Below are positions 2,317 through 22,250 of a stretch of 44,173 nucleotides of DNA, piece after piece (position 1 is the stretch's first letter; each line of letters starts with the position of its first letter). The stretch lies in contig JANQJM010000159.1 in NCBI GenBank assembly GCA_028281635.1, positions 1-44,173 on the forward strand, written 5' to 3'. Source of the DNA: Pseudomonadales bacterium. GTDB lineage: Bacteria > Pseudomonadota > Gammaproteobacteria > Pseudomonadales > Pseudohongiellaceae. The translations under genes were made by a program, and so were the position numbers. The notes beneath the pieces are model-generated. The model saw nothing but the letters and a program-made list of their open reading frames with translations, searched no databases and was not told where the DNA came from.

Positions 2317-3336
2317 ATGCAACTCAGCAGCCACAGAGTTTCTAACATAAGCAGCACTATTCTCTTGCTGCCTATCATTCTCAGCTTTGGAATTGCGAGT
2401 GCGCAGGATGGTGACTATCAGGTCCCAAGAACGGTAGATAATGTACCTGATCTACAGGGGATGTGGACCAATAATACGATCACACCACTTTCAAGGCCGC
2501 CTGAATTCGGTAACAAATTAGTGTTGACGGCCGAGGAAGCTTTCGAATTGGAGAAACGCGTTGCGGACTATACCGCGGAGCAGGATCTTCCAAGCGATCC
2601 GAACCGCAGCGCACCTACGAAAAGCAGAATCGAATTGGCAGACAGCTATAACAATTTCTGGTTTGACGATGGCACTGAGGTTGCTCGATACAATGGTGAG
2701 TTTAGAAGCTCGCTGATTATCGATCCCGAAAACGGACGCATGCCTGAATACACTGCAGCAGCTGAAGAACGCATACGACTGGCACAACAGGCAACAGAAG
2801 AGATGGGGGCGTATGCGGGACCTGAATCCCGGCCATTGGCCGAGCGTTGTCTGTTGTCGTTCAGCTCCAGTGGCGGTCCGCCTATGTTGCCAATCCTGTA
2901 CAACAATAACTACCAAATTGTGCAATCACCCGGGTATGTAATGATCCTCGTGGAAATGGTACATGATGCGAGAATAATCAGAATTGATGACGACCCTTTG
3001 CCCGATTCACACAAACGTTGGCTTGGCGATTCCATAGGCCATTGGGAAGGAGATACCCTGGTAGTTGAAACCAGGAACTTCAACCCTAGCCAGCGTTTCC
3101 GTAATTCTTCGGAAAACCTGCAGATAACCGAGTGGTTTACTCGCGTTAGTGAAAATGTAATCAACTACAAGTTTACTGTTAGCGATCCCGATACTTTTCT
3201 ACAGGATTGGTCTGCAGAAATACCAATGAACCTGACGAATGATCGTTTGTATGAATACGCCTGTCACGAAGGTAATTATTCATTGCCCGGTGTGCTTGCC
3301 GGCGCGCGCCTGGACGAAAATCAGGCGCAAAGATAA
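2317..3336 (+). CDS. Exported PDLQG-type protein, copy 1 of duplicated cassette
   Basis: The 339-residue protein starts with a Sec signal peptide (hydrophobic core at residues 15-28, likely cleavage after ASA near residue 29). After it comes the motif VPDLQGMWTNNT, and near the C-terminus the block YEYACHEGNY followed by LPGVLAGAR. Both blocks recur in the product of the gene at 21285-22241, so the two are paralogues. I know this as a widespread uncharacterised family of exported proteins in Proteobacteria and Acidobacteria. It has no recognisable catalytic motif. It lies 300 bases before the cytochrome-monooxygenase gene, the same relative order as in the second cassette, which implies a joint task in the periplasm. 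The ribosome binding site is weak. Confidence 0.85.
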   Translation: MQLSSHRVSNISSTILLLPIILSFGIASAQDGDYQVPRTVDNVPDLQGMWTNNTITPLSRPPEFGNKLVLTAEEAFELEKRVADYTAEQDLPSDPNRSAPTKSRIELADSYNNFWFDDGTEVARYNGEFRSSLIIDPENGRMPEYTAAAEERIRLAQQATEEMGAYAGPESRPLAERCLLSFSSSGGPPMLPILYNNNYQIVQSPGYVMILVEMVHDARIIRIDDDPLPDSHKRWLGDSIGHWEGDTLVVETRNFNPSQRFRNSSENLQITEWFTRVSENVINYKFTVSDPDTFLQDWSAEIPMNLTNDRLYEYACHEGNYSLPGVLAGARLDENQAQR

Positions 3337-3636
3337 CAGGTGCATGGGAGTGGAGAAGAAATTGAGAGGATGGCGATCGATAGCGATGGCCCTTACTATC
3401 AACCGTCATCCTCTCGCATGCGCAAAACAACCATAAACTGGAGGGTAGCTCTACAGTCAAGCGATTTTGCAGCGCCAAGTATTGCTAATTCAGGTTAATT
3501 GGCAGTTTGTAACTGGGAGTAACATGCTGCGAAATTGTATTGACTGTGTGGGTAACCCTACAGTGTATTTTTTCCTACATAGGCAAAGTAAATCGCGTTC
3601 AAATACAACGCAGGTCCTTACGCGGAGGCATGGATA
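3337..3636. other. Intergenic region with hairpin and operator
   Basis: This 300-base gap holds no convincing gene. At 3364-3415 an outer 9-bp stem (GAGAGGATG / CATCCTCTC) encloses an inner 5-bp stem (GATAG / CTATC). It has no T tract, so it is at best a weak terminator or attenuator for the preceding gene. The recurrent palindromic operator follows at 3544-3563. Confidence 0.45.
3544..3563. promoter_or_regulatory. Recurrent palindromic operator (site 2)
   Basis: The sequence CTGTGTGGGTAACCCTACAG keeps the centre and right half of the recurrent palindrome exactly (GGGTAACCCTACAG, 14 bases). The left half is degenerate. It ends 73 bases before the start codon of the cytochrome-monooxygenase gene, a normal distance for an activator or repressor site. 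Confidence 0.65.
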
Positions 3637-5043
3637 ATGTTCAATCGACGCTCAATTTTTGCGACAGCTGCGCTTACCACAGCGATCTTTTCAACTTCTC
3701 TATCGACGTCTGCCCAGGCACAAGTAGAGGAGGTTACCTTTCACAGGGACATCGTCCCTATCCTGCAACGGAGCTGCCAGAACTGTCACCGGGTAGGTGG
3801 TGGTGGACCTATGCCGCTGGTGACCTATGATGAGGTTACCCCCTTTGCCGGACTTATCGAATACAAAACCGGCCTTAGAGACGAAGCCGGTGCAATGCCT
3901 CCCTGGTATATGGAAAAGAACATAGGTATCCAGGACTACAAAGATGACATTTCATTAAGTGACGAGGAAATCGCGAAGATTTCTCATTGGGCACGTAATG
4001 GAACTCCCGAGGGTGACCCGGCCGATGCCCCTGCCCCACTGGTATTCGATGATTCAATCAAATGGCGCCTGGGAGAACCTGATCTCATTTTGAAATCAGA
4101 AGAAATTACCAAGCTGGCAGGAACGCCAGACTGGTGGGGTGAGATACCTTATATTCCTACCGGGCTTACTGAAGACCGTTACGTCAAATCACTCGAAGTG
4201 ATTGAAGTTAATGACGTTGACCCTGCGGTCGCCTCGCGCACAGTGGGTGGAAGATACATCGTCCATCACATGCTTTGGGGTACCGGATCCCTCGACGAGA
4301 ATGGCAATCTGCAACGCGCCCTCGCATTACCCTGGCCGATCCATGAAGTTGGAAGAAATGGAGACATCTTCGACGAAGATGGCGCTCGCTTACTCAAAGC
4401 AGGCTCGGTAATTTACTCAGATTCTGTTCACTTACATGCTGCAGCAACTGACGCGACGGCACACCTGGAATTTGGATTTACGTTTCAACCAAAAGACTAT
4501 GAGCCTCGATATCAAAACTCGTTCATTCCCGTAGGCAATGGCGTAGACATCAGCATTGTCCCCAACAAGGACAAACAGGAACTGCATGCTTATGAGATTC
4601 TGCGCCAACATACCAAGATCATTTCTTTCGAGCCGCATTTACATGCGCCTGGTGAGCGTATGTGCCTTGAAGCGATTTGGGGCAGTCAGGTAGAAACCTT
4701 GGCCTGTGTTGGTTATGACCATAATTGGGTTCGAACCTACCAGTTCGAAGATCATGCCGCCCCGCTTTTGCCGGAGGGTACGATTCTGCACGTCACAGGT
4801 TATGCCAATAACACCGAAAGCAATTCCAATATTCCAGATCCGAGAAACTGGCAAGGTTCTGGAAACAGTTCAATTCAGAATATGTTTATCGATCTCGGGC
4901 TTAAGCTTTCACTCACCGAAGACCAGTTCTTTGAGGCCATGGAAGAGCGACGAGAAGTACTGAATCTTGGACCGAACGACCATGTAATTGGCTGCCCTCT
5001 TTGCACGGTGCCTTTAGTTGCACCCGTGGAAGGTGATGATTAA
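3637..5043 (+). CDS. Exported cytochrome c / PHM-like copper monooxygenase fusion, copy 1
   Basis: The 468-residue protein has a Sec signal (cleavage near residue 29). A small cytochrome c domain follows, with heme motif C47-Q-N-C-H51 and likely axial Met87 in GAMPPW. Residues from about 180 on resemble the copper type II ascorbate-dependent monooxygenase fold of peptidylglycine hydroxylating monooxygenase. Candidate ligands are H210-H211 (VHHM) and H265/H267 for one copper, and H334/H336 (PHLHAPG) plus Met416 (QNMF) for the other. The family hydroxylates C-H bonds with O2. Here the attached heme, rather than ascorbate, may supply electrons (inference). The C-terminus ends with an unusual C453-P-L-C456 pair. 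The start is set by GGAGG at 3624-3628. The paralogue at 19086-20600 shares all these motifs. The partner gene at 5089 follows after 45 bases. Confidence 0.88.
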   Translation: MFNRRSIFATAALTTAIFSTSLSTSAQAQVEEVTFHRDIVPILQRSCQNCHRVGGGGPMPLVTYDEVTPFAGLIEYKTGLRDEAGAMPPWYMEKNIGIQDYKDDISLSDEEIAKISHWARNGTPEGDPADAPAPLVFDDSIKWRLGEPDLILKSEEITKLAGTPDWWGEIPYIPTGLTEDRYVKSLEVIEVNDVDPAVASRTVGGRYIVHHMLWGTGSLDENGNLQRALALPWPIHEVGRNGDIFDEDGARLLKAGSVIYSDSVHLHAAATDATAHLEFGFTFQPKDYEPRYQNSFIPVGNGVDISIVPNKDKQELHAYEILRQHTKIISFEPHLHAPGERMCLEAIWGSQVETLACVGYDHNWVRTYQFEDHAAPLLPEGTILHVTGYANNTESNSNIPDPRNWQGSGNSSIQNMFIDLGLKLSLTEDQFFEAMEERREVLNLGPNDHVIGCPLCTVPLVAPVEGDD

Positions 5044-5088
5044 GAACACTGGATTAATTTCGATTGTTGGTGGATTTAGTAAATTGCC

Positions 5089-6027
5089 ATGAAAACTCAA
5101 TACATAAGTTCTCTTCTGCGAGATGGCGTCGCTCTTTTGGGTGCATTCGCACTTCTCGTTTCCCAAGTTACATTAGCGCAGTCTAGTTTCACCAAAGACC
5201 AGCCCGTCTATCCAGCATTTGAAGGATGGCGGCAAAATCCAGACGGAACCTTTGATTTCATTTTTGGTTATATGAATGAAAACTGGGAACAAACACCAGT
5301 AGTTCCGGTGGGAGAGAACAATTTTCTGTCGCCCGGAGAAGCTGATAGAGGACAACCCACCCATTTCTATCCACGTCGAAACAGATTCGTATTCCAGGTA
5401 ACAGTGCCGGCAGACTGGGGCGACAGAGAACTGGTCTGGACCCTCAATGTCAACGGCCAGGAACACAAGGCACATGCCACCTTAAGTACTGCTTATGTTC
5501 TAGACAACGTGGCAATCGCATCAGAAACCGGCTCCCTCGGCATTGGCACGAGCAGTCCAGAGTCGCGAGCAAATGTGCCTCCAGTTCTTACTGTGCTTGG
5601 AGATGAAATACGGACTACCCGGGTCGGTGAATCTATTACCATCAGGAGTCGGGTCGAAGATGATGGTATCCCCAGAGTGCGCCCCGTGCGACCGATGAAT
5701 GAAGAGGATTTACGAAAGCGCATGCTCACTCCGGCTCCCAAGCCGGCTGTCGGAAAAATAAACGGCCTGCATCTGGGCTGGCATGTTTTCCGTGGGGCAA
5801 GTGACAGCGTTACCTTCGATCCGCCCCAACCAAAAGTCTGGGAAGATACCCGCTTCGGCGCCAATTCACCCTGGGCGGTGTTCTGGCACCCACCAGAGAT
5901 GCCGGAAGACGGTATAGTGGAAGTTACCGCAACTTTCGACACACCAGGCACATACGTGCTTTGGGGTCGTGCTGACGACGGTGGACTGTTTCATGACGGC
6001 TACATCACTGTAGAAGTCAGCCCTTGA
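5089..6027 (+). CDS. Exported beta-rich partner protein, copy 1 of duplicated cassette
   Basis: The 312-residue protein has a Sec signal peptide ending near residue 30 (TLAQS). I do not recognise a named domain. The conserved stretches are PAFEGW, FGYMNENWE, GENNFLSPGEADRGQPTHF, PRRNRFVF and a C-terminal DTPGTYVLWGRADDGG, which look like one or two Ig-like beta sandwiches. The product of 18109-19089 is a clear paralogue with all of these blocks. In both places the gene sits directly 3' of a cytochrome/PHM-like gene. I therefore infer that it is an accessory, substrate-binding or copper-site partner of that enzyme. Only 45 bases separate it from the upstream gene, so the two are probably co-transcribed. 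Confidence 0.83.
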   Translation: MKTQYISSLLRDGVALLGAFALLVSQVTLAQSSFTKDQPVYPAFEGWRQNPDGTFDFIFGYMNENWEQTPVVPVGENNFLSPGEADRGQPTHFYPRRNRFVFQVTVPADWGDRELVWTLNVNGQEHKAHATLSTAYVLDNVAIASETGSLGIGTSSPESRANVPPVLTVLGDEIRTTRVGESITIRSRVEDDGIPRVRPVRPMNEEDLRKRMLTPAPKPAVGKINGLHLGWHVFRGASDSVTFDPPQPKVWEDTRFGANSPWAVFWHPPEMPEDGIVEVTATFDTPGTYVLWGRADDGGLFHDGYITVEVSP

Positions 6028-6120
6028 TTTATCGCCAGCTTACTTAACCCAACTATCTTTTAGAGGCGACAGACTTTGGTCGCCCTCGATCTTCTCGCTA
6101 CCAAATAGTAACCAGAATTT

Positions 6121-6153
6121 AACAAATCTGTAGGGTAACCCTACAGATTTGTT
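6121..6153. promoter_or_regulatory. Recurrent palindromic operator (site 3, best copy)
   Basis: This is a perfect inverted repeat of two 15-base arms separated by TAA, 33 bases in all. Its core CTGTAGGGTAACCCTACAG (6128-6146) contains the LysR-type T-N11-A element TAGGGTAACCCTA. It lies about 230 bases before the TonB-dependent receptor start. It could also act as a hairpin in RNA, but recurrence of the core elsewhere argues for a protein-binding site. Confidence 0.75.
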
Positions 6154-6252
6154 CGTTCATTCAAAAACTCTAAATCAGCAGTCTGATATAGAGCGTTCGT
6201 TCGCCAGCCCAAGCCTAGGATTATTCTGCAAAACAGCGGAGAAAAAGCTTTA

Positions 6253-6272
6253 CTGTAGGGTATTCCCTACAG
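6253..6272. promoter_or_regulatory. Recurrent palindromic operator (site 4)
   Basis: CTGTAGGGTATTCCCTACAG has both half-sites intact, but with a four-base centre instead of three. It ends 104 bases before the receptor start codon. Together with the site 125 bases upstream it could allow cooperative binding or looping by a tetrameric LysR protein. Confidence 0.7.
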
Positions 6273-6376
6273 ATTAGCATCATTGTCGATGGAGGTAGCC
6301 AAACCCTCAGGTTTTTACTTCTGCAATAACAATTAAAACCCTCAACTATGAGTGGAGTTCCTTCAAGGGAGAAACC

Positions 6377-9300
6377 ATGGAAACTAGAAATATAAAAAGT
6401 CGAAGAAGAGCACTTTTTCTAGGCGTAGTAGTGGCAAACATGGCCTCAGTCACTTTTGCCCAACAAGATAATAGTGTTGAAGAAGTTGTCGTAACCGGCT
6501 CTTACATTCGTGGCTCTGCACTGGACGCCCCTTCCCCAGTTCAGGTTATAGATAGAGCCTCTATCGAAGCTCAAGGTGCATCCACTGTCTGGGACTTGAT
6601 CCGAAACCTCGACATCAACCAGGGGTCTGCCACCAATGTCAATGGATCAGCTGGCGATTCCGCGGGTATCAGCGGTTCAGCTCAGGTGAACCTGAGAAAC
6701 CTCGGCGGCAATTCCACACTTACTCTGATTAACGGCAAACGAGTTACACCCTCTGCGGTGTTAACGATTGCCGGGCAGGAATTCGTAGACCTTAACGATA
6801 TACCGGTCACCATGACCGAACGAATCGAGATCCTCACCGACGGTGGTTCTGCGCTGTACGGATCTGACGCTGTGGCTGGTGTGGTTAATGTCATCATGCG
6901 TACCGAGTTTGAAGGCCTGGAACTCTTCGCAGAAACACAAGGCATTGCAGAAGAAGGTGGCACCTACGAGGAAACCCTCTCAGCTATTTGGGGCTGGGAA
7001 AGCAGTGACGGCCGCACTAACTTCGTGATATCGGGAGAATACTTCGAGCGAGATCCCGTTGGAATCGAACATGGCAACACTTACGATCCAAATCGCTGGG
7101 ATTTTGTAGACGAAGTCGGGTTTGCGACTGCACCTTTCGGTCCTGGGATAAACCCGCTCTATGTAAACCAGGAACTAACAGACCTGAGGCACGCAGAGAG
7201 AGCCTCCATTGGTCTGGCTCCAACCGGCACGGAATATACAGACCCTTTATGCGGAACAGTCCCCGGTACTTACACGGAAACTCGGTTTGACGACTTTGGA
7301 AACCCCAATAGCCAGTGCATGGAAGATATCACTAATCTGAACTTTCTCGCGCAAGGGCAGGAACGTAAAGCTGCCGCAATGACCTTCGAGCACGATTTCA
7401 ACGATCGAACAGAGTTTTACTCTTTCGCTTCCTGGTCAGAGCGAGAAGTCGTGCGGCAAGCTACCGGCATTACATTCCCAAGTTCGGCGTCTCAGAATTT
7501 CATTTTACCCCCACCTGGTTCTTATGCTGCGGCAGGGCTGGGATTTTTCGAAGATGTGACTTTAGGCTCAATGGCCCCCGCTATAGGACTTACTCGACCT
7601 ACTGCGGACGACATTACTAACTCGCCAATTGATCGTCGTCATGATGGCCCGGGCATCCTGACTTTTGGCACCCTGGAAACAGAGTGGCCCAGAGACCCAA
7701 ATCGAACGCGATCGGGTTACAACGATTCCACAATTGTCCAGGCGGGTTTAAGAGGTGATTTTGACGTTGGGGACCGCACCCTGGAATACGATGTAAGCGC
7801 TTCCTGGAGTTTCTCCTCCATGGAACAGGAGCAAAGAATCCTGCTCCGAGACCGCTTCGAACTGGCACTGATGGGCTTAGGCGGACCAAATTGTGTACCT
7901 AACGGCCGCCCGGACTTCGACTACCTGGGCTATGCCGTTAACAATGGTTTACCCGGTGCAGCGTTAATTAGTCCATTGGCCAATTTCGCCAACGAGTTCT
8001 TCGACGGTTTCCCGTTCATCTATCATGAAACTCTGTCTTACGCCTTTACCAGTAACAATCACGGCCAGGGTGGTTGTGAGTTCTATAACCCTCTCCTGAC
8101 ATCTCTGACTAACCCCGACCTGGCAAATGACCGTGAATTGCTCGACTGGGTTGCCACTGATGATTTCCGATTCGACCGTCAGAACAAGATGCTTGTCTTT
8201 GATGCGGTCGTGAATGGCGATTTGGTTGAAGTGGGTGGCGGTATGGCCCGGTTCGCAGCAGGTTTTCACTATCGAGATCGCGACCTTCAATCTGAGGCTC
8301 CTGAATCAGTGATACCTGGCGTTCAAGGCATTGACAATTTCGATGCAGACGGAAATGTGACGGGCACACGCTACGTAAGTAATCACTTGTTCTGTAGTTT
8401 CTGTGTTGCCACATTTGAGCATGAGCGGGATGTTACTGCGGTCTTCGGTGAGCTCTCATTGCCATTGTGGGAAAACTTTGAGTCCCAGATTGCCTTTCGC
8501 TGGGAAGACTACGGAGGAGCCATCGGGGACAATATATCGCCCAAGGTGGCTTTAAGCTGGCGCCCAATGGAAGAGCTTTTACTTCGGGGTTCCTATTCTC
8601 AATCTTTTCGTGCGCCGACCATCCAGGTGGTCGAAGAGGCCTTTGAAGCGTTCTTCTCAAGCCCTATTGATCCCTTGGCTAATCAGCAAGTCCGCGCGGG
8701 ACTGTTACCACCAATCAATGAAAATGGATTCCCGAACGGCGGATTTACTCAGGGCCAAGCGAATCCAAATCTGCAAAATGAAGATGCAGAAACTTTCAAT
8801 ATCGGGTTCCAGTGGACACCAACTGGTAACCTGGAAGGACTTTCAATCGGGGCGGACCTTTGGCGCTTCGAAGTGGAAGACCGGGTTGTGCCTCGAGCGG
8901 TTCGCGCTGCCATCGATGGAGAGATTGAAAATTTCCTCGCCATCGTAAACGATGAAAGTGCTTATGTACTGAATTCAACGATCGAGCTGGAATCAAACCC
9001 GCGAAACGTACCCTGTAGCCCAAGCGCTCTTGAAGCTGAATTCGGTCGGGATTCTGACCAACGTTTGGACTGTGTTGTAAACCCAGAGCTGTATGCTGAT
9101 CCTGTAAATGTTCAACGCGCCCCTGGAGATCCAGATGCTGGAGTATTCAAGTATCTGCAGCCAGCGGTAAATGCCGGTAAGATCGAAGTTCAAGGCATCG
9201 ACTTGAATGTTAATTATGCCTGGGACACAGACTACGGCCAGTTCCGCGCCGGTATCAACTACACTCATGTCGATGAGTACGTCATCTCAGACTTTCCAGG

Positions 9301-9739
9301 GTTGGAAGATGGCCTGCAGACTACCGGGCGATTTGATGCGGCAGGGACTGATGGCGAACAGAACATAGTGCGAGAAGTTCCAGACAACAGGGGCACTCTG
9401 ACTCTTGGCTGGAGAAACGGCAATCACAATCTGGCCGTGTTCAATCGCCACATTGGCTCGTATGAGATCCTGAGTCATCAGAATTTCATTGCTGACCCAA
9501 CCTTAGATCCGATTAACCTGCAGTATGCCAGGCCACAGACTGACAGTTACGACACTTGGGATATCCAATACTCGTACAGCCATGAGTGGGGCAATGCCAA
9601 TATGGGCTCGACGCGTTTTACTTTAGGTGTTCTAGACGCTACCAATGAAGAGCTGCCATTGTTCCGCAGAGAAACGGTTGACAACATCTACGATACCCGA
9701 GGTCGCCGTTGGTACGCTCGAGTTAATTGGACCTTCTAA
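6377..9739 (+). CDS. TonB-dependent outer-membrane receptor
   Basis: The 1120-residue protein has a signal peptide ending near residue 29 (VTFAQ). A TonB-box-like EEVVVTGSYIRG follows, then a plug domain (about 45-180, with the TLINGKRV and GSDAVAGVVNVIMR blocks), and a long barrel closing with an aromatic C-terminus (RVNWTF). The type is an active importer of substrates too large or scarce for porins, energised by TonB-ExbB-ExbD. No siderophore or vitamin specificity is visible. Its length and position next to oxidative enzymes suit the catabolic receptors seen for sugars, lignin-derived or lipophilic compounds, which is inference. Two palindromic operators precede it and a strong terminator follows, so it is transcribed alone. 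Confidence 0.95.
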   Translation: METRNIKSRRRALFLGVVVANMASVTFAQQDNSVEEVVVTGSYIRGSALDAPSPVQVIDRASIEAQGASTVWDLIRNLDINQGSATNVNGSAGDSAGISGSAQVNLRNLGGNSTLTLINGKRVTPSAVLTIAGQEFVDLNDIPVTMTERIEILTDGGSALYGSDAVAGVVNVIMRTEFEGLELFAETQGIAEEGGTYEETLSAIWGWESSDGRTNFVISGEYFERDPVGIEHGNTYDPNRWDFVDEVGFATAPFGPGINPLYVNQELTDLRHAERASIGLAPTGTEYTDPLCGTVPGTYTETRFDDFGNPNSQCMEDITNLNFLAQGQERKAAAMTFEHDFNDRTEFYSFASWSEREVVRQATGITFPSSASQNFILPPPGSYAAAGLGFFEDVTLGSMAPAIGLTRPTADDITNSPIDRRHDGPGILTFGTLETEWPRDPNRTRSGYNDSTIVQAGLRGDFDVGDRTLEYDVSASWSFSSMEQEQRILLRDRFELALMGLGGPNCVPNGRPDFDYLGYAVNNGLPGAALISPLANFANEFFDGFPFIYHETLSYAFTSNNHGQGGCEFYNPLLTSLTNPDLANDRELLDWVATDDFRFDRQNKMLVFDAVVNGDLVEVGGGMARFAAGFHYRDRDLQSEAPESVIPGVQGIDNFDADGNVTGTRYVSNHLFCSFCVATFEHERDVTAVFGELSLPLWENFESQIAFRWEDYGGAIGDNISPKVALSWRPMEELLLRGSYSQSFRAPTIQVVEEAFEAFFSSPIDPLANQQVRAGLLPPINENGFPNGGFTQGQANPNLQNEDAETFNIGFQWTPTGNLEGLSIGADLWRFEVEDRVVPRAVRAAIDGEIENFLAIVNDESAYVLNSTIELESNPRNVPCSPSALEAEFGRDSDQRLDCVVNPELYADPVNVQRAPGDPDAGVFKYLQPAVNAGKIEVQGIDLNVNYAWDTDYGQFRAGINYTHVDEYVISDFPGLEDGLQTTGRFDAAGTDGEQNIVREVPDNRGTLTLGWRNGNHNLAVFNRHIGSYEILSHQNFIADPTLDPINLQYARPQTDSYDTWDIQYSYSHEWGNANMGSTRFTLGVLDATNEELPLFRRETVDNIYDTRGRRWYARVNWTF

Positions 9740-9814
9740 TAGAGTACCTACCGCCAGCTGCGGGTGATGAAAACTGCAGCTTCTCGAACAATCAGATAGG
9801 GGCGGAAACAAAAA

Positions 9815-9843
9815 GGGCGATGAATATTCATCGCCCTTTTTTT
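9815..9843 (+). terminator. Rho-independent terminator after the receptor gene
   Basis: The perfect palindrome GGGCGATGAAT / ATTCATCGCCC (9815-9836) is followed by seven T residues and preceded by an A run. It can therefore stop transcription from both the receptor (+) and the convergent MerR-type gene (-). Confidence 0.93.
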
Positions 9844-9895
9844 AACTATGCATTTGCGCTTATTTGTTGATCACAATTAAACCAAGAGTTTTACC

Positions 9896-10345
9896 TTATC
9901 CAACAGCGGCTTTAGGCGCGCTTTCTTCGGCGGAGCAAGATGTCACAGTAAAGTTTTTCGATTCCAGAAACTCTGCGTAAACATCTCTACTGGGATCCTG
10001 CTGAAGCAGCTCTCTTGTTTCCTCTAGTTTCTGAATTTTGCATTTGAGCTCTTCAATCTTCGCCTGCAACTCGTTTATTTTCTTCTCTCCAACCTTGATC
10101 TGCTCTTCAGCAGTAAAGGTACCGTTGAGAATAGCATCGAGGATTGGTTTGCCTTCCTTCAACGAAAAACCCAAAGATTTGCCATGCTCTATCAAAGCCA
10201 GGCGTATCAGCGTGTCGTCCTTATAGTCCCTGTATATTCGAGTCCCTGCGACCAACGGCTCGGAATGAATCAGTCCCATGGATTCATAGTAGCGGATACC
10301 GTCTTTCGTCAAACCACAATTTTTAACTACTTCACCTATTAACAT
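9896..10345 (-). CDS. MerR-family transcriptional regulator
   Basis: The start is placed at the ATG at 10345 (protein 149 residues) because AAAGGAGA lies five bases upstream. A GTG at 10366 would add seven residues and cover this ribosome binding site. Residues 1-70 form the MerR winged helix (LIGEVVKNCGLTKDGIRYYESMGLI). Residues 75-115 form the long dimerisation coiled coil. The short C-terminus has cysteines (one in VTSCSAEE) but not the C-x7-9-C metal loop of CueR or ZntR, so the inducer is unknown. The gene is convergent with the receptor gene and divergent from the LysR gene. It lies about 265 bases from the LysR start, with an operator between them. Confidence 0.88.
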   Translation of the reverse strand: MLIGEVVKNCGLTKDGIRYYESMGLIHSEPLVAGTRIYRDYKDDTLIRLALIEHGKSLGFSLKEGKPILDAILNGTFTAEEQIKVGEKKINELQAKIEELKCKIQKLEETRELLQQDPSRDVYAEFLESKNFTVTSCSAEESAPKAAVG

Positions 10346-10520
10346 AAGATTCTCCTTTGATTTCACCTGAGAACCATTCTTGAAGAACTAATGAAGCATA
10401 ATTTCAATCGACCACCATTATATTTAGTCTTCTCCTGGCGCATGATTAGCAAGCACGTCGCTTGCTGATGTATGGAAATCTTACTGCCCATATTGGAGCA
10501 TTTCTCAATTCCCCATACAT

Positions 10521-10538
10521 CTGAGGGTCACCCTACAG
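10521..10538. promoter_or_regulatory. Recurrent palindromic operator (site 5) in the lysR promoter
   Basis: CTGAGGGTCACCCTACAG matches the recurrent palindrome with one base missing from the left arm and a C in the centre. It ends 69 bases before the LysR start codon and 176 bases before the divergent MerR-type gene. A site in the regulator's own promoter is usual for LysR proteins and is the main reason to connect this motif with that regulator. Confidence 0.62.
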
Positions 10539-10607
10539 ACAATTGAACTATCAATCTAATTTATTTTCTTTATAATCTGATATCATTTTCGTGAATAAAG
10601 GTGATGT

Positions 10608-12553: not shown

Positions 12554-12587
12554 TTCTCGCTTTTTAGTAATAATAATCAACGTGCAG

Positions 12588-12607
12588 TGTTCTTGATGCC
12601 AAGAACA
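12588..12607. promoter_or_regulatory. TetR-type operator before the SDR gene
   Basis: TGTTCTTGATGCCAAGAACA is a perfect 8-bp inverted repeat with a four-base spacer, ending 29 bases before the SDR start codon. Its size, symmetry and place next to a tetR-type gene fit a TetR repressor site overlapping the promoter or leader. Confidence 0.72.
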
Positions 12608-12636
12608 GGTAATCACGCTATGAATCGGAGCGTTAA

Positions 12637-13482: not shown

Positions 13483-13577
13483 ATTCCTAAAAACAGTAGC
13501 AACCTGAAAATGCCTTATGGCAGTTCAAAAATGAATAAGCTGGAGTTGCAATACTTCACTCGGTTACAGGAGGCCTT

Positions 13578-14051
13578 ATGGCTTACAGACTAAAAATAAA
13601 TGGCGAGATACATGAACTGGACGTAGAGGGCGACTTACCCCTGCTTTGGGCAGTGCGTGATTATTTAAACCTCACAGGTTCAAAGTTTGGTTGTGGACTC
13701 GCCCAATGCGGCGCCTGCACGATGCATGTCGATGGCGTGGCAACCCGCACCTGCGTTCTGTCAATCTCTCAAGCCGAAGGTAAAGAGATCACCACGATTG
13801 AAGGCCTGACCTCAGTCGCCGGTAAGGCTGTAAAACAAGCCTGGGTTGATGCGCAAGTGCCGCAATGCGGCTATTGCCAATCGGGACAGGTCATGTCTGC
13901 TACTGCCTTGTTAGAAAGTAACAGCAATCCTACCGATGCTGAAATCGAAGCCGCCATGTCTGGCAATATCTGTCGCTGCGGTACTTATTCACGCATCAAG
14001 AGCGGAATCAAACTTGCCGCACAGGCAATCAATGCAGTGGAGGTGGCATGA
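13578..14051 (+). CDS. 2Fe-2S subunit of a molybdenum hydroxylase (isoquinoline oxidoreductase alpha type)
   Basis: The 157-residue protein carries two [2Fe-2S] centres. The plant-ferredoxin type uses C39, C44, C47 and C59 (CGLAQCGAC motif); the second uses C97, C100, C132 and C134 (CGYCQSGQ and CRCGTY). This is the standard small subunit of xanthine-oxidase-family enzymes of the IorA branch. It passes electrons from the molybdenum centre to a cytochrome or quinone. CAGGAGG lies seven bases before the ATG. Its stop codon overlaps the start of the large subunit by four bases. It has no signal peptide and is presumably exported bound to the Tat-carrying partner. Confidence 0.95.
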   Translation: MAYRLKINGEIHELDVEGDLPLLWAVRDYLNLTGSKFGCGLAQCGACTMHVDGVATRTCVLSISQAEGKEITTIEGLTSVAGKAVKQAWVDAQVPQCGYCQSGQVMSATALLESNSNPTDAEIEAAMSGNICRCGTYSRIKSGIKLAAQAINAVEVA

Positions 14052-16228: not shown

Positions 16229-16294
16229 TAAGGGACCTATGCTTAAATGAGCTTAACAGACGCCCTTTAACTATAAACATGGGGAGAATACATT

Positions 16295-17308
16295 ATGCAA
16301 AATGAACTGGTTCTCGTTACCGGTGTATCAGGCTTCCTCGGTAGCCACATAATTTTGCAACTCCTGGAAAAGGGCTATCGTGTCCGCGGCTCTGTGCGCG
16401 ATCCTGCGCGCAATGATTCCTTACTAAATTTGTTTAAGGAAAGTGCTCCCGCCGATGCTTCAATCGAACTGGTTCAATTAGATCTCACCAAAGACGATGG
16501 CTGGTCTGAAGCCGCTAGTGGTTGTGACTACATACTGCATATTGCTTCACCCATCCCTCTCAATAGTCCCAAAGAACGGGATGCATTGGTTGGGCCAGCC
16601 CGGGATGGCGCAATCAGGGCGCTGCGGGCCGCCAAAGGCGCAGGTTGCAAGCGGGTCGTGTTAACTTCATCACTTGCATCAGTGAGCTACCAGCGGCAGC
16701 ACGACCAGGACCATCCCTATACTGAGGAAGACTGGTCGGATCCGGAAAATCCAGATATCAGCCCCTACATTCGCTCTAAAATACTGGCAGAAAGGGCAGC
16801 ATGGCAATTTGCAAAAGAGAATCAAATCGATCTCGCTACAATCTGCCCGGGCATCATACTGGGTCCCGTACTTGAGAACGATATTGGCACCTCAGCAGAA
16901 GTCGTCAAACAACTCATGGACAGGACTATTCCATTGTTTCCGCGATTTGGCTTTGCGGTTGTTGACGTGCGTGACGTTGCTTCAATGCATATCGAAGCAA
17001 TGACAAATCCCGCCGCGAGTGGCCAACGCTTCAATTGTGGCGGAGAGTTCATGTGGATGGAAGATATTGGCAGAGTCTTAAGGGAAGCCTATCCTGACAG
17101 AAAGCTGCCCTCACGTCGCATGCCTAACTGGCTGGTACATATTGCCGCGATCTTTAATCCGCCGCTGAGGGCAACTCTGGGAGATCTCGGTCGAACTCAG
17201 ATAGTATCGCATGATAAAGCGACGAGACTCCTAAATTGGAATCCCCGTTCCGAAAAAGAGGCAATCCTGGCAACCGCAGAGTCCCTTATCGCGCGCAACA
17301 TCGTCTAA
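16295..17308 (+). CDS. NAD-dependent epimerase/dihydroflavonol-reductase-like dehydrogenase
   Basis: The 337-residue product is an extended SDR. The Rossmann motif is TGVSGFLGSH (residues 8-17), followed by the phosphate-binding RGSVRDP. Catalytic Ser lies in LTSSLASV and the Y-x3-K pair in YIRSK. The closest families are dihydroflavonol 4-reductase, 3-beta-hydroxysteroid dehydrogenase and carbonyl reductases. GGGGAG precedes the ATG. It lies 66 bases after the molybdenum hydroxylase gene on the same strand, so it probably belongs to the same operon and processes a carbonyl or hydroxyl intermediate of that pathway (inference). Confidence 0.9.
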   Translation: MQNELVLVTGVSGFLGSHIILQLLEKGYRVRGSVRDPARNDSLLNLFKESAPADASIELVQLDLTKDDGWSEAASGCDYILHIASPIPLNSPKERDALVGPARDGAIRALRAAKGAGCKRVVLTSSLASVSYQRQHDQDHPYTEEDWSDPENPDISPYIRSKILAERAAWQFAKENQIDLATICPGIILGPVLENDIGTSAEVVKQLMDRTIPLFPRFGFAVVDVRDVASMHIEAMTNPAASGQRFNCGGEFMWMEDIGRVLREAYPDRKLPSRRMPNWLVHIAAIFNPPLRATLGDLGRTQIVSHDKATRLLNWNPRSEKEAILATAESLIARNIV

Positions 17309-17420
17309 TCGAGTTAGAAGCCCTTTCTGAGCTTAGTTCAGATAGATTTGCTTGTGTATTAACTGACCAAAGTGCCCCATTAGCAGAGAAGCTCCAGGGC
17401 ATTTGGAGTCCGTTAAACAC

Positions 17421-17443
17421 TGGTTAACCACAAAATTTTGTGG
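17421..17443. promoter_or_regulatory. Overlapping palindromes before the small anchored-protein gene
   Basis: Two exact palindromes share three bases: TGGTTAACCA (17421-17430) and CCACAAAATTTTGTGG (17428-17443). They end 35 bases before the preferred start codon at 17479. They could be an operator. They match no other element in the window. Confidence 0.4.
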
Positions 17444-17478
17444 CAAGTTTTCTCATTGATCCAATGAAGGAAGCCAGC

Positions 17479-17979
17479 ATGAAAAAGACACTAAAATACA
17501 GCAGCATCGGCTTGCTTAGTCTGTTATTCGTCTCTTTATTATCATTGAGAGTATTTGGGCTCGAGCCTCAGGACTTGCGCCCAGGGTTATGGCTGTCGGG
17601 TGAACTGGTTACGGAACAAATAACCGATTGGTCATTTACTGACGATTATAGCGAAATTTTTGTTCAGACCAACACTCGCTATGGAATTCCTCATTCAGTT
17701 ACTGCCTATTGCATAGACTACGAAGGCCGATTCTATTTGTTTTCTTCCTATTATGGTGGAGGCACATTCCCCGATGATCGCGCCTGGAATCGCAATGTCA
17801 TTCGAGACCCTAGAGTGCGATTGAAAATAGGTGAGAACCTGTATGACCAGCAAGTTAGTCTGGTGGCAGATGATGCAATCCGAGCCGGCGTTCTTGATGC
17901 ATGGCTCGCAAAATACGAAGGTTGGAGTAATCCGGGCCTGGAAAATTTCTACGTATTTCACGTACAGCCACGAACCTAG
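17479..17979 (+). CDS. Membrane-anchored split-barrel-like protein (relative of 28724-29230)
   Basis: The ATG at 17479 is preferred over 17440 because AGGAAG lies about six bases upstream. It also places the hydrophobic helix (residues 6-25) at the N-terminus, giving 166 residues. After the anchor come RPGLWLSGELV, a beta-rich middle, and a WNRNVIRDPRVRLKIGENLY block. The block resembles flavin/F420-binding split-barrel (PNPOx or DUF385-like) proteins. The product of 28724-29230 has the same layout (TPGLIIGGEL, W-x-A-R-I-R-D, Y-x-M-E-A). I regard the two as distant paralogues of unknown activity, probably facing the periplasm. Confidence 0.75.
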   Translation: MKKTLKYSSIGLLSLLFVSLLSLRVFGLEPQDLRPGLWLSGELVTEQITDWSFTDDYSEIFVQTNTRYGIPHSVTAYCIDYEGRFYLFSSYYGGGTFPDDRAWNRNVIRDPRVRLKIGENLYDQQVSLVADDAIRAGVLDAWLAKYEGWSNPGLENFYVFHVQPRT

Positions 17980-18017
17980 ATCACTTCGAGATGTGACTGA
18001 CCCACTCCTCTAAGAGG

Positions 18018-18049
18018 GAAGGCCGAACTGCATACACAGCTCGGCCTTC
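18018..18049. terminator. Bidirectional hairpin between convergent genes
   Basis: A 9-bp stem GAAGGCCGA / TCGGCCTTC is extended inside by CTG / CAG after one mismatch, with a six-base loop. It sits between two convergent genes (stops at 17979 and 18109). T tracts are short, so it is a plausible but not ideal intrinsic terminator. Confidence 0.6.
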
Positions 18050-18108
18050 TACTATGCTGTTCCGATCAGCGCAAACAATTCGCACTGGCAGGCTACAGTC
18101 TTCGCCAG

Positions 18109-19089
18109 CTAAAGCGGACCGTCGATTGGCGTTACTTCTACCGTGACTTCGATATCACGGTGCAGCCCGCCGTCGCTAACCCTGCCATGGAGAACATAAG
18201 TTCCCGGATCCTGGAAACGGACTTGCGCGGTCCACCGCCCGTCCTCCGGGTCCAAAGGCGCTACATAGCCATGAGCCCAAGGTGATGAATAGGGACGAGT
18301 GTCCTCCCAAACTTTTACCTGACGCGGGCTGAAATCGACTTCTCCTTCACCCCGATAGACAAACCAGGAAACGTGCAGAAAATTCACTTTACCAGGCACC
18401 TGGTAGCGAGGTTGGCTTACTCCGCGTTTAAGTTCCTCGAGATCCAGTGGCTTAAAATTGCGATCCCGGTTTGCAGAATAGAATATCCCTGGTTGGCCGT
18501 CATCACTAACACGAACGGACAACTCAACGGGCTCACCCACTCGCACTTTATGTTGTGTATTCCCTTCGAGCTCGCCTTCAGGCCACTGATTGGCTCGAAC
18601 TTCAGGGTCCGTGGCGCCGTTAAAGATACTGCCGTTTTCCGACATGATTACAATCTTATCGACAAAAAAATCCGGCTCGATTGAACCGAACGCCCTCAAC
18701 TCCTCTCCTTGTGTACGCAATGTCCAAATTAATCGATTGGACTCATCCTCGAAGAATGATTCTGGCACCTCGACTGCAAAACTCAGGCGGTTTCTGCGTG
18801 GCAAAAAATGTGTGGGCTGCCCCTGGTCTGCTGGTCCGGGAGCGAGGAAATTGTCTTCACCAACTGGAACGTCCAGTTCTTCCTCCCAATTGCGGTTCAT
18901 ATAGCCAAACCAAAGGAGATAAGACCCATCCTCGTTTTGCTCCCATCCTTCGAAGGCCGGCTGCACAGCTTGACCCTTACTGTAAGTGTGCTCCTGGGCC
19001 AACGCCCATGGCGATAAGGCGGCCACCCAGGCGGCCATCAGAAAGAATTTGGAGAGTCGCATAACTATTTTGAGCATCTCCGCACTCAT
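18109..19089 (-). CDS. Exported beta-rich partner protein, copy 2 of duplicated cassette
   Basis: The 326-residue protein has a Sec signal peptide (hydrophobic residues 12-30, ALAQ cleavage). It carries the same blocks as the product of 5089-6027: PAFEGW, FGYMNRNWEEE, GEDNFLAPGPADQGQPTHF, PRRNRLSF, WEDTRPYSSPWA and PGTYVLHGRVSDGG. The function is unknown; the C-terminal part looks like an Ig-type beta sandwich. The start codon overlaps the stop of the cytochrome-monooxygenase gene by four bases, so the two are translationally coupled. This is stronger evidence of a functional pair than the 45-base gap in copy 1. It is the last gene of the long minus-strand operon. Confidence 0.86.
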   Translation of the reverse strand: MSAEMLKIVMRLSKFFLMAAWVAALSPWALAQEHTYSKGQAVQPAFEGWEQNEDGSYLLWFGYMNRNWEEELDVPVGEDNFLAPGPADQGQPTHFLPRRNRLSFAVEVPESFFEDESNRLIWTLRTQGEELRAFGSIEPDFFVDKIVIMSENGSIFNGATDPEVRANQWPEGELEGNTQHKVRVGEPVELSVRVSDDGQPGIFYSANRDRNFKPLDLEELKRGVSQPRYQVPGKVNFLHVSWFVYRGEGEVDFSPRQVKVWEDTRPYSSPWAHGYVAPLDPEDGRWTAQVRFQDPGTYVLHGRVSDGGLHRDIEVTVEVTPIDGPL

Positions 19090-20600
19090 TGCGACACCTC
19101 TGCTTGTGACACTTCCAGACCGCCTGTAGCTTGAGTGCTAACCTCGGTATCTTCGACCCCCGGTTGAGCGGTAGTAGGTGCAACCAAGGCACCACAGAGT
19201 GGACAGCCAATGACATAGTCGCCAGGCTGGAGATCGAGAGCTTCGACTCGTTCTTGCATCTCCGTCAAAAACTCCTCATCCGTGAGCCGAACGTTGTGGC
19301 CTAACTCCAGAAACATATTGGATACCGAGCGATTGCCGCCGCCTATCCAGTTTTCTGATGACGCGATATTAGGGTTCGCCCTAGTGCTGTCGTTATAGCC
19401 TATCAGGTGAACGATCGTTCCTTTAGGAAGCAACGGCGCAGCATTTTCGCCATAGCTGTAGCTGCGAACCCAGGTGTGGTCATAACCGACACAGTTCAGA
19501 ATTTCTGTTTTCGATCCCCAGATCGCTTCCAGACACATCCTGACCCCCGGCGCATGAAGATGGGGCTCAAAACTCAGGATCATCGTATTCTCGGTAAGCA
19601 CCGTGTAGGCATGCATCTCCTGATTCTGTGTATTCGGCCGCACATCCATGTCTACCGTATTTCCGGGGGCACCAAATCCTCCATGCCCGCCAGTCCGCGT
19701 GTATTTGGGCTTGTACCCCTCTGGATGAAATTCAAAAGCGATTTCAAGATAAGCAGTCGTATCAACACCGTTGGAGTGCAAGTGTAAAGAGTTGGATTGA
19801 AATTCTGAATTCGCGGGCAAGATTCGCCCGACATCGTCCGGAAAGTAGTCTTCGTTTCTTCCCACTTCATGGGTTAGAAAAGAAAGACCTCTCGGCCGCA
19901 ATACACCGTTTTCATCTGGTGAGTTAAGCACGAAGGTAAGGTGGTGCACGATGACTTGCCCGCCCACTGTATCCCGGACGCCTTCTCGAGTAGATACATC
20001 ATTAATTTCGCGTACTTGCATTGCCGCCACATAGCGGTCTTCTTCAAGCGGTATCTTAATTGGCTCGATATCTCCCCAGTAGTCCGGTGCACCACCTCTC
20101 ATAAAGAAGTCCTGGCTGCGCACTACCAGATCTGGCCTGATTGACCACTCGCCAGAGTCATCGAATTCACGCGCTGGCGGGATGTCATCCGGGTTCCCTA
20201 ATGGCGCTCCAGATTCAGCCCATGCCGCAATCGTTGTAACCTGTTCGTCACTCAGGGACATGTCATTGCGGAACTCCTGGATACCTATGTCTTTTTCCAT
20301 GTACCAGGGTGGCATGGCACCGGGCTTATCTCTAAGGCCAGTGCGATAAGCGATAATTGGCGCCCAGGGTCTGGTAGATTCATAACTCTCGAAAGACATT
20401 GGAGCAACACCACCGCTCCGATGGCAGTGCACGCACTTTTCTTGAAGGATTGGCGCAACGTCTCGTGCATACGTGACGTCGTGATGTACTTGCTCAGCTT
20501 GCGCAAGTGCCCGCCCCGCTCCCCAAAAAGCGATAGCTACTGACAGCAAAGAAAAGAAAGCCTTCGTCTTCGTGCTAAGTGAAAGTGTTTTCTCGCTCAT
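19086..20600 (-). CDS. Exported cytochrome c / PHM-like copper monooxygenase fusion, copy 2
   Basis: The ATG at 20600 is chosen (504 residues) because GGGGGAG lies just upstream. A start at 20642 would add 14 residues ahead of the signal peptide. Mature residues begin after ALAQ (about 34). The heme motif is C56-V-H-C-H60, with likely axial Met96 in GAMPPW. Candidate copper ligands are H219-H220, H273/H275 and H347/H349 in PHLHAPG, plus Met in SNMF. The C-terminal CPLC pair is conserved with copy 1. An extra glycine-rich, histidine-containing loop (around residues 301-314) and a longer acidic tail distinguish it. It lies 38 bases after the epoxide-hydrolase-like gene and overlaps the partner gene, within the ten-gene operon. 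Confidence 0.88.
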   Translation of the reverse strand: MSEKTLSLSTKTKAFFSLLSVAIAFWGAGRALAQAEQVHHDVTYARDVAPILQEKCVHCHRSGGVAPMSFESYESTRPWAPIIAYRTGLRDKPGAMPPWYMEKDIGIQEFRNDMSLSDEQVTTIAAWAESGAPLGNPDDIPPAREFDDSGEWSIRPDLVVRSQDFFMRGGAPDYWGDIEPIKIPLEEDRYVAAMQVREINDVSTREGVRDTVGGQVIVHHLTFVLNSPDENGVLRPRGLSFLTHEVGRNEDYFPDDVGRILPANSEFQSNSLHLHSNGVDTTAYLEIAFEFHPEGYKPKYTRTGGHGGFGAPGNTVDMDVRPNTQNQEMHAYTVLTENTMILSFEPHLHAPGVRMCLEAIWGSKTEILNCVGYDHTWVRSYSYGENAAPLLPKGTIVHLIGYNDSTRANPNIASSENWIGGGNRSVSNMFLELGHNVRLTDEEFLTEMQERVEALDLQPGDYVIGCPLCGALVAPTTAQPGVEDTEVSTQATGGLEVSQAEVSQ

Positions 20601-20638
20601 GGTTCTCCCCCTGAGTAAGAGTTCGCTTTGGAACAGGA

Positions 20639-21103
20639 TCAAGCCTGTTCTATGGCAATTGTGTAGTCATACCAATCAACAATCTTTCCATCTCTGATAA
20701 AAAATACTCCCACGCCTCGCCAGGTCTTAATGGCAAAATCTGAAAAGTAGTCAATCCGTTCGTTAATAACCATTGGCCCCCTGGCGAAGGTTTCCAACAC
20801 ATCGAAGCGCACCACATTATTCAAGATCGAATCGATACGAGCTGCTACCGCTTCTCGACCGTCAGCCAACTCTGTTGTCTCTGTCATACGGTACGCGCCA
20901 TCGTCCGCAAAGTAGGCCATCAATTGGTCCAGGTCATGCTCGGGAAAGGCAGCGCAGAATTCATTGACAAGCTTGACATTGGCCTGTTCAGTGGAGGTTA
21001 GTTCCGCTGCATTCGCATTGCGCGCTATACCGGCAAGAGCAACTGCTCCAGCACCCACTGTAAGGAATTCACGGCGATCTATTTTCTGCTTTGTCGTTTT
21101 CAT
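20639..21103 (-). CDS. Tat-exported limonene-epoxide-hydrolase-like protein (SnoaL-like fold)
   Basis: The 154-residue protein starts with a Tat signal (DRREFLTVGAGAVALAG, residues 9-25). The rest is a small alpha+beta barrel of the SnoaL/LEH superfamily. The motif NERID (R116, D118) and D146 in WYDY line up with the Arg-Asp-Asp proton relay of limonene-1,2-epoxide hydrolase. Hydrolysis of an epoxide, or a related proton-transfer reaction, is therefore plausible. GGAG lies before the ATG. A 181-base gap to the preceding gene leaves room for an internal promoter. It is inserted between the PDLQG and cytochrome-monooxygenase genes, an arrangement absent from copy 1 of the cassette. Confidence 0.85.
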   Translation of the reverse strand: MKTTKQKIDRREFLTVGAGAVALAGIARNANAAELTSTEQANVKLVNEFCAAFPEHDLDQLMAYFADDGAYRMTETTELADGREAVAARIDSILNNVVRFDVLETFARGPMVINERIDYFSDFAIKTWRGVGVFFIRDGKIVDWYDYTIAIEQA

Positions 21104-21284
21104 GTTACTCCTGTTCCTTGCGCACTCGCCGATGCTGAAGAAGGTGGTAGAAATTTCTCCAGTACTTTCATGGTATTACGCATTTTAAGAAATCCATGCA
21201 TGAGTACTTGTTAGGCCAATTCAGAGGTATCTGCTCAATCACCAAGGCGGGCGTACACCTCAGCCAGTTAACGATACGCGGTAA

Positions 21285-22241
21285 TCAATTCGCTTGTTCA
21301 AGAGTTCTTGCACCACGCAGGATGTTGGGCAAAGCATAATTACCTTCGTGGCAGGCATACTCGTATATTGGTTGCTCAGAAAAATCGAAGATGATTTCCC
21401 GGGTAAAGGGAGCTGAAAAAGTATCTGGCTGATCGGAAGTAATCTGATAGCGCAGTTCAGTGTCGCTGATTCGCGTAAATCGCTCGACGTTTAGACGTGC
21501 TCTGTTATGACTGAAGCTGCTCTTATCCGAGTAATTCCTGGTTTCCACGACCAGGGTATCGCCATCAAAGTAACCACGAGAATCACCATGCCAGAGTTGA
21601 ATGCTCTCTGGCGCATGGGGCATACCGGTAAGGGGAATGATACGTGCGTCGTGCATCATTTCCTGATAGATCACCACATGATCTTTTGATTGGACGATTT
21701 GCCAATAGCTGTTGTATCCGGCGCTCAGGTAGGGAGCACTGTAGCTAATGCAGCGGTCATCTACCGTTAGATCCAGCCAGGATGCCGGTGGCTGGCCACG
21801 CCGACTCGAGTTCGCTCGCGCTATAGCGGCGTCAGTACGCGACGGGTACTTGCCATTAGCAGGGTCGATAATCTGAGAAGTGCGACTATGAACGTTTCGC
21901 TCTACTAACCAGGCCTGGTCATAGTTTCCGGTAGAGGGATCGTATGAGCTAACTTCACCAGACACTGCTGCCGCGAAGGCTCCATCTCCAAACAGCGCAT
22001 CACCATCGCCATCCGTAATCTCACGCACTCTTTGTTGCAGAAACTGAATTTCTTCCTGAGTGAGAAACTCACGACCTTCAAACATGTCCGGACGCTCTAT
22101 AGGAGTCAGGGTGTTGTTAGCCCAAACACCTTGCAAGTCAGGTTGACCATCTATAGTTCGGGAGACTTGCCAGTCGTCAGCCCACACGTTGACAGCAAAC
22201 GTACTTGCAAGAATTCCAACTGCACAAATCACTAGTCGCAT
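21285..22241 (-). CDS. Exported PDLQG-type protein, copy 2 of duplicated cassette
   Basis: The ATG at 22241 is preferred over a TTG at 22247 because TAGGAG lies six bases upstream, giving 318 residues. The Sec signal ends near residue 22 (NVWA). It shares QPDLQGVWANNT, the MMHDARII segment, the VVETRNY segment and the C-terminal YEYACHEGNYALPNILRGAR with the product of 2317-3336. No catalytic residues can be proposed with confidence; the invariant Cys and His in ACHEGNY could bind a metal. It begins nine bases after the ankyrin gene's stop codon, so the two are certainly in one transcript. Confidence 0.87.
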   Translation of the reverse strand: MRLVICAVGILASTFAVNVWADDWQVSRTIDGQPDLQGVWANNTLTPIERPDMFEGREFLTQEEIQFLQQRVREITDGDGDALFGDGAFAAAVSGEVSSYDPSTGNYDQAWLVERNVHSRTSQIIDPANGKYPSRTDAAIARANSSRRGQPPASWLDLTVDDRCISYSAPYLSAGYNSYWQIVQSKDHVVIYQEMMHDARIIPLTGMPHAPESIQLWHGDSRGYFDGDTLVVETRNYSDKSSFSHNRARLNVERFTRISDTELRYQITSDQPDTFSAPFTREIIFDFSEQPIYEYACHEGNYALPNILRGARTLEQAN

Positions 22242-22250
22242 CAGCAACTC

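Follow-up and report, generated by a model that had tools for sequence, protein, structure and literature searches.

Does the double occurrence of a three-gene cassette on a single contig mark a functional unit that has been duplicated as a block? The question is raised by contig C146 (JANQJM010000159.1; 44,173 bases, here called the window), part of the 4.24 Mb genome, 85.8% complete, of a Pseudomonadales bacterium. Genes for a PDLQG protein (A), a protein combining cytochrome c and PHM-like parts (B) and a beta-rich partner (C) follow each other on the plus strand at 2317-6027, and again on the minus strand at 22247-18109, where a SnoaL-like gene lies between A and B. The first-pass annotation had taken this order, together with quoted signature blocks that are indeed present, as evidence of a three-protein functional unit. 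The observation is right, its three-gene interpretation is not; what is conserved is a stronger unit of two genes, B and C, of which A is no fixed member. The genes in question are the following.

2317..3336 (+): A1, PDLQG protein, exported as judged by eye; judged a lineage-specific neighbour outside the unit
3637..5043 (+): B1, exported cytochrome c with PHM/DBH-like (DBH, dopamine beta-hydroxylase) dicopper core; signal peptide assigned by eye
5089..6027 (+): C1, partner, exported as judged by eye, beta-rich, with a weak signal similar to immunoglobulin (Ig) or PKD domains
21285..22247 (-): A2, PDLQG protein, 3 bp after an ankyrin gene; judged a member of the upstream gene run
20639..21103 (-): SnoaL/LEH-like protein with a Tat-like start; 4-bp overlap with B2
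19086..20642 (-): B2, deep paralogue of B1 that agrees with it in the copper and heme residues
18109..19089 (-): C2, deep paralogue of C1; 4-bp overlap with B2

The B-C pair and the place of protein A

By BLASTP the two copies are 39% identical in A (expectation value, E, 1e-63), 49% in B (9e-165) and 44% in C (3e-83), so that homology, not chance, accounts for their likeness. No Pfam or NCBIfam model matched A or C of the window above its cut-off. That the cassette occurs twice holds for the window; across the whole genome, a limit of E 0.001 admits 28 matches to B, 8 to C and 35 to A, partial ones included. Five near-complete members of the genus (G134, G135, G136, G082 and G127) together yield, at E up to 1e-10, 112 matches to B, 49 to C and 182 to A, certain B genes entering the count as two pieces. 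As many as 60 of the matches to the PDLQG family fall in one of the five. Protein C is present in 114 of the 137 genomes of the family (E up to 1e-20); in an even draw of 274 genomes across the class it was found in the genome of the window only. Two of the named contigs carrying a B-C pair bear a Gemmatimonadetes label.

C genes nearly always adjoin a B gene. In the five genomes a B gene lies on the same strand within 1 kb of 48 of the 49 C genes, where 0.53 would be expected. Seven of the eight C genes in the genome of the window adjoin a B gene, the eighth being cut by a contig end, and B stands beside C in 12 of 14 named contigs, one of the remaining two (L108) ending at C. Both partners have also diversified together. 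For 66 pairs (the five genomes contributing 48, the genome of the window 5, named contigs 11 and the window itself 2), patristic distances in the B and C trees correlate with a Spearman coefficient of 0.90, which none of 2000 permutations reached, the best giving 0.15. The order is B-C in 49 pairs and C-B in 17, and pairing has therefore outlived changes of gene order. Two checks that the first-pass annotation had proposed, conserved adjacency and matching trees, thus favour B and C, and fail for the trio: A directly precedes B in a single one of the 14 named contigs, that of a sister species, and A1 and A2 are placed in separate branches of their tree.

Copy 1 and copy 2 are deep paralogues. 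Among 64 other loci, copy 1 has 34 that are nearer to it than copy 2 in the B tree, and 30 in the C tree; a recent block duplication was rejected on these counts. Some observations weigh against a strict pairing. A C gene without detected B occurs in L100, and another without B within 1 kb in G134 (G134:C1:1488835); B paralogues without C are frequent, as the 112 B and 49 C matches in the five genomes show, and C is therefore not required by the B core as such. One unpaired gene of the genome of the window (L112, G000:C164) encodes a B protein 67% identical to B1, with no C adjoining; an alpha/beta hydrolase gene follows it. In G082 (C3:815516-816855) a B-like gene lies in two pieces near an intact B-C pair, and is perhaps a decayed tandem copy.

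In the five genomes A lies within 3 kb of 3 of the 49 C genes, against 2.8 expected from the 150 listed of the 182 A matches, or 3.4 expected from all 182. A1 and A2 belong to different branches and are not sisters: 48 of 90 sequences are nearer A1 than A2 is, and 50 of 90 nearer A2 than A1 is. Outside the genome of the window and that of the sister species, 31 orthologues of A1 at 65% identity or more were found, and for 28 of them the flanks were examined as far as 1.5 kb either way, without a B gene being met. Members of a family typified as Oxidored_molyb occur within the same distance of 23 of these 28 genes (L161-L188), and methyltransferases of 21, one example of each having been checked; these are raw counts. 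Among 28 relatives of A2 taken from a longer list (62-71% identity, sister species excluded), none adjoins a relative of the SnoaL or C proteins of the window; a distant B (29% identity) is found beside one (L211), and a relative of the DUF1592 protein (40%) beside another (L190). In L099 an A2 relative (59%) follows a DUF1592-DUF1552 gene couple, and in the window A2 follows DUF1592-DUF1552-ankyrin. The sister species, a metagenome-assembled genome also labelled 'Pseudomonadales bacterium', retains A1-B1-C1 (L096), with A1 90% and B1 96% identical.

Not all of this is easily reconciled with A as an outsider. In L098, L099 and L109, which represent one related locus, an A-family gene is found after C, with one gene between. 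Same-strand B-A neighbours within 1.5 kb number 6 in the five genomes, against 2.1 expected, and four of the six are one inherited arrangement, in which a B gene devoid of C is followed by A. The pair is found in contig C150 of the genome of the window (L058, G000:C150) and in G134, G135, G136 and G082 (L286-L289), with identities to the C150 genes of 76-81% for A and 74-80% for B, and A following B at 162-414 bp in the other four. The B protein of this type is 22% identical to B2. The retention of this pair speaks against A as a mere chance neighbour everywhere; the A-B link in a distant, C-less B subfamily is real, and the place of A beside B-C is not kept. The predicted structure of A is also poor (mean predicted local distance difference test, pLDDT, 58.7). 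Its most confident part is a beta sheet with weak Foldseek matches to fatty-acid- or retinol-binding proteins, no match of this poor model reaching E 0.001 or less.

In our reading A would be a large separate family, found beside B-C in this lineage by chance or by recent recruitment. The most resistant alternative holds that A is a helper, perhaps ligand-binding, serving various exported oxidoreductases and recruited under selection, separately, at both copies of the window. The kept C-less B-A pair, the A-family genes near molybdopterin oxidoreductases and after DUF1592-DUF1552, and the beta sheet with its fatty-acid-binding-protein likeness are compatible with it. A-C proximity at chance level, the descent of most B-A cases from one arrangement built on a remote B, the lack of a significant fold match and the rawness of the neighbour counts speak against it, and we regard the helper hypothesis as doubtful, though not implausible.

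Protein B, its partner and copper

The reading considered probable is that B acts in the periplasm as a dicopper monooxygenase, receives its electrons from the cytochrome c of its own chain and is accompanied by a non-catalytic partner, C, and that copy 1 is governed by a MerR-type switch. In B1 the heme-binding motif CxxCH spans residues 47-51, and the putative copper ligands are H210, H211, H265, H334, H336 and M416. These six are invariant in all 66 paired B proteins, as is M87; C47, C50 and H51 are found in 65 of 66, with one gap. The motif and the invariant M87, likely the axial heme ligand to judge from its conservation, identify a c-type cytochrome domain. A profile built from 20 members of the B family retrieved human DBH (4zel) at E 5.9e-5, the sole sequence of the PDB below E 0.001, and the HMMER alignment superimposes the HH pair, the third His and the HxH motif on the enzyme. 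The ligands of DBH are His262, His263 and His333 at CuH, and His412, His414 and Met487 at CuM, as given in PMC4846438. H210, H211 and H265, invariant and aligned with the HH and H of DBH, would thus form CuH, and H334 and H336, likewise invariant and aligned, would form CuM together with the invariant M416.

Two points tell against this assignment. M416 lies beyond the stretch aligned to DBH, so that its designation as the CuM methionine derives from its invariance, and neither B1 nor B2 matches the Pfam copper-monooxygenase models (PF01082/PF03712) at E 0.1. PF03712 is matched at E below 0.01 by 3 of the 20 B-family members, and Cytochrome_CBB3 by 14 of 20, remaining below cut-off in B1 and B2. 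Because of these cut-offs B is termed here PHM-like, and is not filed as a member of the PHM/DBH type II copper monooxygenases. Other features of the family vary. A GCxxC motif (VIGCPLC) near the C-terminus occurs in 37 of 66 paired B proteins, including both of the window, and an N-terminal AhpC-TSA/redoxin domain is found in 3 of the 20 B-family members (L015, L016 and L019), which represent redoxin-cytochrome-PHM-like fusions.

According to the model proposed, B would be exported as a single chain, a fusion of a c-type cytochrome domain and a PHM/DBH-like core that houses two copper sites. Electrons would enter via the heme, instead of or besides ascorbate, and then reach the coppers; O2 bound at CuM would lead, in the periplasm, to hydroxylation of a small substrate at one of its C-H bonds. 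Protein C contains no His, Cys or Met conserved in at least 90% of 66 relatives, which makes a catalytic role unlikely; the His of its PTHF block is replaced in L097, L098, L099 and L109. C would be an exported, non-catalytic partner which most probably docks on B and shapes its stability or the access of substrate. Structural data add little to this picture, and to some extent count against it: the predicted structure of C is poor (mean pLDDT 58.5). With this low-confidence model Foldseek returned 21 matches that reach E 0.001 or less; most are Ig-like proteins of several domains, superposed with large root-mean-square deviation, and are to be taken as leads only, and the best hit of the C profile among solved structures had an E of 0.36 only.

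Copper supply may accompany some pairs. Among 83 neighbours of B-C pairs examined, of 116 candidates, 9 match CopC and 6 match SURF1, a cytochrome oxidase assembly factor. A CopC gene immediately follows C in L111, L272 and L277. The five genomes contain 22 CopC genes, and 8 of these are no more than 1 kb away from a C gene, against 0.16 expected. The figure has to be tempered, since the 8 cases consist of 3 same-strand B-C-CopC runs and 5 convergent genes at the SURF1 locus; these two inherited arrangements amount to about two independent associations, not to 8 events. The contig of the window has no CopC match. Some pairs outside the window carry such a CopC copper carrier.

The cytochrome domain and the CopC neighbours, and SURF1 beside some pairs, would fit as well a protein which transfers electrons or handles copper and is no oxygenase, the PHM-like fold holding copper or relaying the electrons of the cytochrome. 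Storage or one-electron transfer seemingly does not need six dicopper positions, the CuM methionine among them, all invariant in 66 pairs, and the number of paralogues per genome would be better explained by a diversity of substrates. A role of B without oxygenase activity appears for these reasons distinctly unlikely.

The copy-1 module and the copy-2 operon

The surroundings of the two copies differ. Around copy 1 the following features were recognized.

2223..2248 (+): terminator-like hairpin and T run before A1
3540..3571 (+): MerR-type promoter-like site before B1: TTGACT, 20 bp, TATTTT; contains TGTGTGGGTAACCCTACA
6121..6153 (no strand): perfect palindrome with 16-nt arms in the gap between C1 and the TonB receptor gene
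6249..6280 (+): MerR-type promoter-like site before the TonB receptor gene: TTTACT, 20 bp, TAGCAT; contains CTGTAGGGTATTCCCTACAG
6377..9739 (+): TonB-dependent receptor after copy 1; a 78% orthologue lies beside the B1-C1 orthologue of G136
9896..10366 (-): MerR-family regulator; a 60-61% orthologue lies at the same locus in G136

The TonB receptor flanks copy 1, as had been annotated. The module is found in a second species: G136 carries an orthologous locus with B1 (78% identity), C1 (71%), the receptor (78%) and the MerR protein (61%), and no A gene in the 19 kb around B1-C1-TonB-MerR. Palindromes of the CTGTAG...CTACAG type precede B1 and the receptor gene in the window, in the sister species and in G136. 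They slightly overlap the TTGACT or TTTACT hexamer, from which a TAnnnT hexamer is separated by 19-20 bp. In promoters activated by MerR proteins, such as CueR, SoxR and others, a palindrome lies in a long spacer between the -35 and -10 hexamers. The sites described here share the palindrome in a 19-20 bp spacer, and a MerR gene resides at the locus in two species; MerR-type control is predicted on these grounds.

The operator-like palindromes are at 3545-3562 before B1, and at 6121-6153 and 6253-6272 before the receptor gene. The site before the receptor gene is kept, with changes, in the sister species and in G136. The window has two exact TGTAGGG-N3,4-CCCTACA sequences, each located between C1 and TonB, and 3 of 283 loci have one, always at the C1-TonB place; the palindrome before B1 has 2 mismatches. 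A weaker copy, with 3 mismatches, is found at 10520-10537 between the MerR gene and a LysR gene. The first-pass annotation had placed palindromic operators on the flanks of copy 1. This is sustained for those before B1 and TonB, not for the palindrome at 2223-2248 before A1, rejected as an operator because its 11-pair stem followed by a T run is terminator-like. Terminator-like sites in the scan are 7, not above the shuffle mean of 6.0, and 2223-2248 has the longest stem. A1 lies outside the predicted palindrome/MerR-type control.

Several details weaken the prediction. Allowing 3 mismatches, the N4 palindrome has 3 matches in the window, and 9 of 100 shuffles yield 3 or more, so that the B1 palindrome carries no more weight than its conservation in the sister species and G136 confers. 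The -10 hexamers of both sites match at 4 of 6 positions, a hexamer as good as this is found for B1 at a spacing of 18 bp, and a sigma-70 consensus scan with 16-18 bp spacers listed neither promoter. As to the signal, the NCBIfam model nearest to the MerR protein is CueR, at 64 bits against a cut-off of 147, and its C-terminal tail has one Cys in the window and none in G136. Since this residue is not kept, a CueR-like copper site is unlikely, and copper sensing of the CueR type was dropped as unsupported. Through palindromes in long-spacer promoters, the regulator would switch B1-C1 and the TonB receptor together, and shared control suggests that the substrate, or a related signal, is probably imported by the receptor.

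Copy 2 forms the end of a ten-gene run on one strand (31509 to 18109), the ten-gene operon of the earlier reading. Six genes lie upstream of A2.

22251..31509 (-): upstream six genes of the ten-gene run
Members of the run: ankyrin protein, DUF1552 protein (HXXSHH), DUF1587/1595/1592/1588/1585 protein, two-domain VOC protein
Further members (-): gene 28724-29236 and weakly CarboxypepD_reg-like gene 29266-31509

From 31509 to 18109 the gaps measure 29, 45, -4, -4, 1, 3, 181, -4 and -4 bp. The 181-bp gap separates A2 from the SnoaL gene, and a consensus scan gave no promoter or terminator within it. In both copies the widest gap adjoining B-C is that toward A, 300 bp in copy 1 and 181 bp in copy 2. 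The extra gene, annotated before as epoxide-hydrolase-like, matches SnoaL_2 (E 2.5e-11), and LEH is above its cut-off as well. To speak of different control for the two copies was fair, given MerR-type promoters for copy 1 and an operon after an AraC-type gene for copy 2. The ankyrin gene and A2 share the frame in the window, with one in-frame stop between (22245-22253); in the sister species (L189:96-2549) ankyrin and A2 make one 848-aa open frame, with the A2 signal-like stretch inside. This may be either a fusion in the sister species or a split in the window. Just past C2, on the opposite strand (17440-17979), a small protein with a weak F420H2_quin_red match is encoded, and 61% identical relatives directly follow C on the same strand at L098:10931-11419, L099:10931-11419 and L109:8597-9085.

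The hypothesis of one three-protein unit A-B-C, duplicated as a block, can lean on the order repeated in the window, on its retention in the sister species, on the A-family gene after C in L098, L099 and L109, and on a same-strand A upstream of 2 of the 8 C genes of the genome (0.12 expected, Poisson 0.006, a post hoc figure; 0.52 expected and 0.10 when either strand and side are counted); against chance-level A-C proximity, the 28 examined A1 orthologues outside the sister species, none of them beside B and mostly near the molybdopterin oxidoreductase family, the separate branches of A1 and A2, the G136 locus devoid of A and the wide gaps toward A, it is highly improbable and was rejected.

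Significance and comparison with known systems

If B-C is the monooxygenase pair proposed, bacteria possess many copper monooxygenases that have been little explored, every one joined to a fixed partner and perhaps needing no small-molecule reductant. The pair would offer a direct route to test how electrons are delivered to PHM/DBH-type enzymes, and a way to learn which compounds are oxidised by this environmental group. B and C, with the TonB receptor and the MerR regulator in one case, are the genes to be co-expressed first; the PDLQG gene is no fixed member of the set. More tentatively, the many co-evolved B-C pairs of each genome may be a modular oxidation kit, made by one bacterial family out of a heme-fed PHM/DBH-like copper monooxygenase and a single dedicated partner, every pair oxidising a different imported compound in the periplasm, and some having a TonB receptor, a MerR switch or a CopC copper carrier of their own. 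Such a kit, if real, would add a self-reducing branch to a class of enzymes whose best-known members come from animals and use ascorbate.

B resembles peptidylglycine alpha-hydroxylating monooxygenase (PHM) and DBH in its six copper-ligand positions, which show the pattern HH, H, HxH, M in that order, in the distant homology of its core to 4zel, and in export. It differs in being bacterial, in the c-type cytochrome fused at the N-terminus, in the partner C, and in staying below the Pfam cut-offs; no further Pfam domain was found in B1 and B2. PHM is described as widespread in eukaryotes (PMC8812541). No bacterial cytochrome c-PHM fusion was met among the titles and abstract openings listed in searches of the open-licence literature, which is no proof of absence in print.

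Two other systems deserve comparison. Families of planctomycete-specific cytochrome-domain proteins known as PSCyt/PSD occur in multiple copies, have unknown function, and include PSCyt3 genes lying beside an unknown family (PMC5615132). The gene for the DUF1587/1595/1592/1588/1585 protein beside the DUF1552 gene, upstream of copy 2, belongs to this type; B and C lack those domains, and B has the copper core. A precedent for the cytochrome-fed reduction of bacterial copper monooxygenases is Cellvibrio Cbp2D X183, an exported c-type cytochrome able to reduce lytic polysaccharide monooxygenases (LPMOs) outside the cytoplasm (PMC8981238). Cbp2D also carries a DUF1587 domain like the DUF1592 protein of copy 2, and, as B is supposed to do, joins an exported c-type cytochrome to the reduction of a copper monooxygenase. 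In the Cbp2D system an LPMO is reduced by a cytochrome that belongs to another protein; in B a single chain contains both the heme and the PHM-like core.

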